Shown here: one piece after another, positions 1,254 through 9,933 of the stretch
Numbering within the stretch: position 1 is the first letter of the stretch
Layout of the letters: every line of letters begins with the position of its first letter
From: Geopsychrobacter sp.
Lineage (GTDB): Bacteria; Desulfobacterota; Desulfuromonadia; Desulfuromonadales; Geopsychrobacteraceae
NCBI GenBank assembly: GCA_021647445.1
Contig: JAKIUS010000016.1
Coordinates: forward strand, 1-11,222
Direction: 5' to 3'
Length of the DNA stretch: 11,222 nucleotides
Made by a program: the position numbers and the translations under genes
The notes under the pieces: generated by a model
The model's database searches: none
What the model was told of the DNA's origin: nothing
The model's input: the letters and a program-made list of their open reading frames with translations, nothing else

Positions 1254-1388
1254 CTACCGGGCGCGCCAATCATAGAGATGGGTCGCGGCCGCCTGCACCA
1301 GATCATCGACTCCCTCGCGGCTAACCGCCGAAATCAGAAAGACCTTGTGCCCCTGCGCAACAAATTCATCCTTAAGCCGCTCGGCCTC
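1254..1388 (-). pseudogene. obgE: Detached C-terminal end of Obg, downstream of an in-frame TAA
   Basis: Directly after the TAA at 1389-1391, in the same frame, 44 more sense codons follow before a TAG at 1254-1256. They read EAERLKDEF, then HKVFLISAVSREGVDDL, and end in YDWRAR. This is recognisably the normal end of the Obg G domain, including the SAV motif (G5), which contacts the guanine base. With this segment the protein would be 335 residues, the usual Obg length. There is no internal frameshift and no further decay, so the stop is either very recent or an error in the sequence. No convincing restart site for this fragment on its own is visible. Confidence 0.85.
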
Positions 1389-2261
1389 TTACCGCACTTC
1401 CGGGATATCGATCTTATTGAAGACCACCAGTTGCGGCTTTTTCGCCAACTCAATATCGTAACGTTCCAACTCATTATTGATCAGCTGAAAATTCTCAACC
1501 GGATCACCCTGCTGCAACATGCTGAGATCGACGAGATGCAAGAAGAGATCGGTGCGTTCGACGTGACGCAAAAAGCGTGTGCCGAGACCCTGCCCCTCGC
1601 TGGCGCCCTCGATCAAACCTGGAATATCGGCCACGACCATGGTCCGATCTCCCAGATCAACTACCCCGAGATTCGGCACCAAGGTCGTGAATGGATAATC
1701 GGAGATCTTCGGCTTTGCGGCCGAAATGACCGAAATCAACGTCGACTTACCCGCATTCGGCAGACCGATCAAACCGACATCAGCGAGCAATTTCAGCTCC
1801 AGACGCAACTGCCTGACCTCGCCGGGCATCCCGGGCTGGGCGTGACGTGGAGCCCGGTTGGTACTGGTCTTAAAACGAGCATTGCCCCGTCCGCCCTGAC
1901 CACCCTTAAGAAACAGGACTCGCTCATCGGAGTCGGTCAGATCGAGCATCTGCTCGCCGGTCTCGTCGTCAAACACCAGGGTGCCGGGCGGCACATGTAA
2001 AAAAAGATCGCCGCCGCCCTTGCCATGCATATCCTTACCAAGACCGGGACCACCATTTTTGGCTCGATGATGGCGCTGATAACGGAAATCGAGCAGGGTC
2101 GTCAGGCTGCTATCGACGACAAAGTAGATATCGCCACCGCGACCGCCATCCCCACCATCGGGGCCACCGCGTGGAATAAACTTCTCGCGGCGGAACGAAA
2201 CACAGCCACGACCGCCATCCCCAGAACGTGCTTCAATCAAGACCTGATCTACAAACTTCAT
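1389..2261 (-). CDS. obgE: GTPase Obg (ribosome assembly), truncated by premature stop
   Basis: Obg/CgtA is a GTPase that binds the 50S subunit and takes part in its late assembly and in stress signalling. Residues 1-157 are the glycine-rich Obg fold (GDGGRG at 14-19, [12 protein letters not shown] at 32-43). The G domain follows, with G1 GLPNAGKS (166-173), G2 TT in YPFTTLVPN (189-197), G3 DIPG (212-215) and G4 NKID (282-285). The frame then stops at TAA after IPEVR (residue 290), before the G5 motif. The family is normally about 335-340 residues, and the missing end lies intact just downstream. As written, the product would lack the SAV loop and the last helix, so full nucleotide binding is doubtful. 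The start is the family's usual MKFVDQ, with an AAGG about nine bases upstream. An intrinsic terminator lies 28 bases before the start codon, so expression depends on read-through or an unseen promoter. Confidence 0.93.
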
Positions 2262-9417: not shown

Positions 9418-9933
9418 ATGCTAAATTTTAAAATACGCAAAAACTTTCTCTTTGTACTCGGTCTCACCGGTCTACTGTTGATCGCCCTGTTATTGCTGTG
9501 CATTATCCAGCAGGAGACCACCGGTAAAACCCTGATCCTTGCGGCCATTATATTACCGGTACTGGGCCTGTTTGCCGAGAGCTGGCACCGTCAAATAAGT
9601 TTTGACGATCGTCAAATTATAGCGCGGCGCCTGTTCAGAAAAAAAATCGTCGCCTATGCCGATGTCACTTCGGTCGATACGGTCAGGGTCCGCCGCAGGG
9701 TCTTTGTCAGTGTCAGTACCGAAGCAGATTTTTTAATCCTCTCAAACAATTACGATTGTTTCGGACAACTGCTGGGCCAACTGACCCAACGTCTACCAGA
9801 ATCAGTTATCAGTCCAGAGACCAAAGAACTTGTTGAAAATCTGCCGACCAAAAACCACGAAATGTTTTCACTCTGGCTGGCAGTTGTCGTATTAATATTT
9901 ATTCTTTATGTCCAACTGGGGGGTTCGTTCTGA
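9418..9933 (+). CDS. Small membrane protein with PH-like central region, function unknown
   Basis: The product has 171 residues. Two hydrophobic helices lie at the start (about 10-30 and 37-53) and one at the end (about 149-166). Between them is a soluble stretch (about 56-145) with alternating beta-like segments: HRQISFDDRQIIARRL, KKIVAYADVTSVDTV, RRRVFVSVSTEADFLILSN and a final amphipathic helix FGQLLGQLTQRL. This order of two helices, then a strand-rich domain of about 70 residues, resembles bacterial PH-like membrane proteins, but that is a visual impression only. AAGG stands about seven bases before the ATG. It lies between moaC and the dksA-like gene on the same strand. No partner or pathway can be named from context. 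Confidence 0.8.
   Translation: MLNFKIRKNFLFVLGLTGLLLIALLLLCIIQQETTGKTLILAAIILPVLGLFAESWHRQISFDDRQIIARRLFRKKIVAYADVTSVDTVRVRRRVFVSVSTEADFLILSNNYDCFGQLLGQLTQRLPESVISPETKELVENLPTKNHEMFSLWLAVVVLIFILYVQLGGSF

Follow-up and report, generated by a model that had tools for sequence, protein, structure and literature searches.

An in-frame TAA ahead of the G5 motif of obg in a Geopsychrobacter metagenome bin: most likely a single-base error or rare variant of the assembly

Introduction

Does a bacterium of the Geopsychrobacter group live with an Obg GTPase that has lost the end of its G domain, or does the stop codon found in its obg gene belong to the assembly only? The question is raised by the 11,222-base stretch of Geopsychrobacter sp. 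DNA analysed here (the window), which is one whole contig (C224) of a metagenome bin derived from environmental DNA, and in which obg (obgE/cgtA) is interrupted by an in-frame TAA at codon 291. A preliminary description of this DNA had offered four options without choosing between them: a real and very recent nonsense mutation, a suppressor background, a functional short Obg, or a base-call error. The evidence presented below favours a consensus error or minor variant first, and then a recent real nonsense mutation; suppression is left without support, and a short Obg with a weak hint in its favour.

The same description held Obg to be essential in most bacteria studied. This stands in part: one report describes Obg as essential in every bacterial species tested so far (PMC4028186), but in Streptococcus sanguinis it proved possible to delete obgE, and one evolved population had a 37 kb duplication including der (PMC12691585).

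Results

The stop in obg is a genuine feature of the sequence of this assembly. As first described, the minus strand reads TAA directly after NKIDIPEVR, and 44 sense codons follow in the same frame before the natural TAG (Table 1); the base following the TAA is G. The mechanical open reading frame (ORF) stops at 1389 and gives a product of 290 residues, while reading through the stop, with X in its place, yields the 335 residues and the intact SAV that had been reported. The read-through product matches the family model TIGR02729 over positions 1-327 of 329 (464.3 bits) and the 290-residue product over positions 1-287 (442.9 bits), both exceeding the curated family cut-off of 280.25, and the N-terminal Obg fold PF01018 is found at residues 4-158 (208 bits). 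We take NKID and SAV to be the G4 and G5 motifs, from knowledge of the G-domain fold. Unlike in the known Obg/CgtA/ObgE proteins (TIGR02729; PF01018 plus PF01926), a TAA lies here after G4 and before G5, and a complete G domain with G5 is absent from the predicted product, since G5 is encoded past the stop. Both sides of the stop score as coding in a 6-frame model. The read-through frame aligns across the stop with Bacillus subtilis Obg (1LNZ) and Escherichia coli ObgE (5M04) over nearly the whole length, and the alignment shows the tail to be homologous to that of the relatives right across the stop, which is more than chance.

Table 1. Features of the interrupted obg gene, of other interrupted genes in the bin sample and of the window
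Feature	Contig or locus	Position	Strand	Remark
obg (obgE/cgtA)	window	1254..2261	-	335 codons + TAG, interrupted at codon 291
In-frame TAA, codon 291	window	1389..1391	-	directly after NKIDIPEVR
G4 motif NKID, residues 282-285	window	1407..1418	-	upstream of stop
G5 motif SAV, residues 311-313	window	1323..1331	-	downstream of stop
Tail, codons 292-335 (44 codons)	window	1257..1388	-	open, homologous to intact relatives
Natural terminator TAG	window	1254..1256	-	end of read-through frame
DCC1-like thiol-disulfide oxidoreductase	L134	7865-7867	-	TAA inside; PF04134 spans stop
PAS/histidine kinase	L217	5439-5441	+	TAA inside PAS domain ahead of HisKA; PAS models span stop
Type I restriction HsdS	L131	9120-9122	-	TAG at residue 196, after best specificity stretch (7-170)
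obg, rpmA, rplU, rng, TIGR03960/TIGR03936 radical-SAM fusion	window		one strand	in that order; proB beyond obg
radA, moaC, dksA	window		opposite strand	after the obg-side genes

Obg was surveyed in 41 genomes, our own and 40 related ones, with the curated cut-off applied. It exceeds the cut-off in 38 of the 41, among which ours is the sole one with an inner stop, and no inner stop was present in the 37 full-length and one partial Obg of the 40 related genomes. The partial Obg (G002) is a contig-end piece covering positions 148-327, and two genomes (G008, G015) gave weaker, paralogue-level matches only. The comparison of codon 291 took in 35 rows, which correspond to 31 distinct records (L008/L034, L012/L035, L032/L036 and L031/L038 are the same contigs, judged by length). 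The alignment with the nearest relatives that had been proposed as a check shows a sense codon in 31/31 distinct relatives and no shared stop; over the 35 rows the residue is Glu in 26, Gln in 4, Asp in 2, and Ser, Ala and Asn in one each. A G to T change in a GAA codon had been put forward as the origin of the TAA. This agrees with the Glu of most relatives, but two species of the same genus (L034 and L035) have Gln at residue 291, so GAA is only one possible earlier codon. Judged from these alignments, none of the relatives examined shares the stop, which is private to this assembly. Those nearest to it that bear a name are themselves metagenome bins (Deltaproteobacteria or Geopsychrobacter sp.) with Obg 86-88% identical to ours; the closest protein among the matches listed (P0004) is 89% identical, and the 20 best of those listed are 81-89% identical to the read-through Obg.

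We consider it probable that the TAA is a consensus error, or the base of a minor strain, in a fragmented metagenome bin. A single wrong base, or the base of a rare strain, would have entered the consensus at codon 291, and the living population most likely carries an ordinary full-length Obg. Several observations point this way: the bin is fragmented (546 contigs for 2.52 Mb, with 71.06% completeness and 2.97% contamination), no such stop occurs in the relatives examined, the obg tail holds neither a second stop nor a frameshift and keeps its invariant columns, a single Obg exceeds the cut-off in the bin, and three further genes in our sample of the bin are cut by TAA or TAG. Single-base errors and pseudogenes are a general phenomenon in metagenome bins, and they appear as isolated in-frame stops in otherwise open genes, of which this bin has several; unlike the usual ones, the stop described here hits a usually essential gene.

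The three further genes come from a scan of 100 contigs picked by contig number, not at random, which together with the window make up 101 of the 546 contigs (641,740 bases, 67,078 of them masked, thus 575 kb readable). A 3-periodic Markov coding model was applied to 35 codons on each side of in-frame stops having at least 40 open codons before and at least 36 after them. The second run of this model, whose sensitivity at points within long frames was 0.87, flagged 48 of 1984 stops. Most of these, by eye from the peptides, separate adjacent genes that share a frame, with the next start codon a short way past the stop. An earlier scan based on codon usage had been dropped, as it flagged 186 of 619 stops with no discrimination because its training set contained shadow frames. 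Eleven flagged frames of our bin, from both runs of the model, were checked by Pfam. The stop lies at residue 112 of the tested piece both in the DCC1-like protein and in the PAS kinase. HsdS was flagged in the first model run only, which had other thresholds, and is counted from there; its frame holds a second specificity stretch, and its TAG could be a natural half-subunit end.

Two in-frame TGA codons were left out of the count of interrupted genes. The first (L154:6354-6356, minus strand) lies between W and PYC in a peroxiredoxin-like AhpC/TSA protein, where PF00578 spans it, and is probably a selenocysteine codon. The second (L133:3656-3658, plus strand), which like HsdS was flagged in the first model run only, stands at residue 185, and a match to GRDB (PF07355) covers residues 47-182, ending three residues ahead of it; the peptide behind this TGA resembles the selenocysteine motif of the GRDB family, and it too looks like a selenocysteine codon. 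No selenocysteine tRNA is present among the 24 tRNAs found, which are an incomplete set.

For comparison, we scanned 400 kb of G004, a member of the genus whose complete genome is a single contig. There, 41 of 1370 stops were flagged, and none was seen cutting a domain, three having been checked by Pfam and the other 38 by eye; in the three (L176, L159, L171) no listed domain stretch spans the stop, and L176 is two neighbouring genes. If all four interruptions in our sample, obg included, were single-base events, about 0.8% of obg-sized genes would be hit; scaled up to the whole assembly this makes about 18, and the implied change rate is about 3 per 10,000 bases. It is no surprise that one such stop falls in an essential gene, and screening many windows will single out just such a gene.

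Several points weigh against an error or minor variant. A true mutation would look the same in the assembly. The contrast between four cases in our sample and none in G004 is not significant (0.12), and obg is an ascertained case. No inner stop is found in the IF-2 piece, IleS and GyrA of the bin, which served as an essential-gene control, so stops of this kind are occasional and do not pervade the bin; in the window itself, the named genes other than obg, proB and the GAF protein look whole. The rate given above rests on few cases, and consensus errors by themselves would hardly be expected to reach about 3 per 10,000 bases; a mixture of strains, or real pseudogenes among the cut genes, probably adds to it. 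The other three cut genes are of dispensable types and could be true pseudogenes. Finally, the excess of private changes in the tail, described below, would fit a stop older than an error.

These points lead to the best placed of the alternatives, a real and recent nonsense mutation, which we nevertheless judge unlikely. Here the cell would make a 290-residue Obg without the end of the G domain and G5, and it would grow poorly, rely on a bypass or belong to a dying minor lineage. A single lesion in an otherwise open gene has the look of a recent mutation, further genes of the bin are interrupted as well, and the tail has its mild excess of changes; the deletions in S. sanguinis indicate that loss of Obg can be survived (PMC12691585). 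Against it, such a stop occurs in 0/38 Obg genes seen in relatives.

If the TAA is real, the product would, from established knowledge of the fold, lack the end of the G domain and G5, and it should be poor in guanine-nucleotide binding. The 290-residue product can be likened to ObgE-NG, a laboratory construct shortened at the C-terminus, whose binding is described as unimpaired and which still inhibits subunit association (PMC4028186). The likeness is limited: ObgE-NG is without just the variable C-terminal domain that follows the G domain, whereas the TAA here truncates the G domain itself. Natural truncation of Obg is not evident in the titles or abstract openings of the papers that our literature searches listed.

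Could the short form be the normal product, with the tail dispensable in this organism? We regard this as very improbable, even if the tail gives some reason to ask. Identity to L034 is 91% in the head and 69% in the tail, the tail being the less conserved part of Obg among intact relatives too. Private residues occupy 6/42 positions of our tail and 3/290 upstream of the TAA, which gives a Fisher p of 0.00018, lower than in any other of the 25 rows. Of the columns that do not vary in the other 19 rows of the clade, 2/19 are changed in our tail and 0/201 in the head, and no other row exceeds one such tail change. The non-synonymous tail-to-head ratio is 2.6-3.7 between our gene and five relatives, against 0.3-2.5 when those five are compared with one another (ten pairs), and our own branch measures 0.36 in the tail and 0.05 in the head.

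Intact relatives, however, come close in the private-residue test: P0020 has 7/42 private tail residues (p 0.00031), P0018 5/42 (0.0011), P0022 4/42 (0.0028) and P0017 4/42 (0.0059), and in a 20-row version of the test our gene equals P0020 (both 0.0015). P0018 also has the same tail-to-head branch ratio (0.28 vs 0.04). The tail dN/dS of our gene (0.10-0.26) overlaps that among relatives (0.08-0.24), the synonymous sites being strongly diverged, and wherever a tail column does not vary in the other 24 rows our tail keeps it (11/11), including SAV, which is invariant in 25/25 aligned rows. No homologue shorter than 332 residues appears among the 120 matches listed of 8000 scored. The comparisons thus suggest a mild and non-specific excess of changes in the tail. 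Since several intact relatives show nearly as much, we do not read it as decay, though mild relaxation of the tail may be at work.

It is highly unlikely, finally, that the stop is read through to give a full-length Obg, whether by a suppressor tRNA for UAA or by an altered code: the tail is open, and a suppressor could be unseen in so incomplete a tRNA set, but none of the 24 tRNA genes found, in a set without many expected isoacceptors, has a suppressor anticodon, and TAA terminates 163/436 long open frames in the sampled contigs and 3/8 other complete genes of the window (rplU, rng and moaC). The one release factor found in the bin looks like RF2 by our reading of its sequence, and RF2 releases at UAA; reassignment of UAA in this organism is very unlikely because TAA is a common terminator and the release factor is RF2-like. 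The search for such a tRNA suggested in the preliminary description was negative within this incomplete set, as was that for a second obg copy, just one Obg being above the cut-off in this 71% complete bin. Recoding of the selenocysteine type was rejected at codon 291, the codon being TAA and not TGA. Separate re-initiation of the tail was judged unlikely: its first ATG, GTG or TTG is codon 322, after G5, so no piece containing G5 can start from those codons; two rarer start codons, CTG 309 and ATT 310, precede G5.

As to the rest of the window, proB and the GAF protein run off the contig edges. At 9418-9933 (plus strand) there is a 171-residue protein without Pfam match, with hydrophobic stretches, seen by eye, near both ends.

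Discussion

Unless raw reads tell otherwise, the finding is ordinary: most probably it is a single wrong base or a rare variant of the assembly. On the comparisons made here we would be greatly surprised if a free-living member of the Geopsychrobacter group really managed with an Obg truncated in its G domain, by a bypass or with a working short form, while the tail drifts; if true, this would mean that Obg can fill its vital role without G5 and the final portion of that domain. The main lesson is one of caution: a lone in-frame stop in a conserved gene of a fragmented metagenome bin should be backed by reads before anything is made of it. A real and fixed stop, on the other hand, would allow an essential GTPase found almost everywhere to be tested without its G5 motif.
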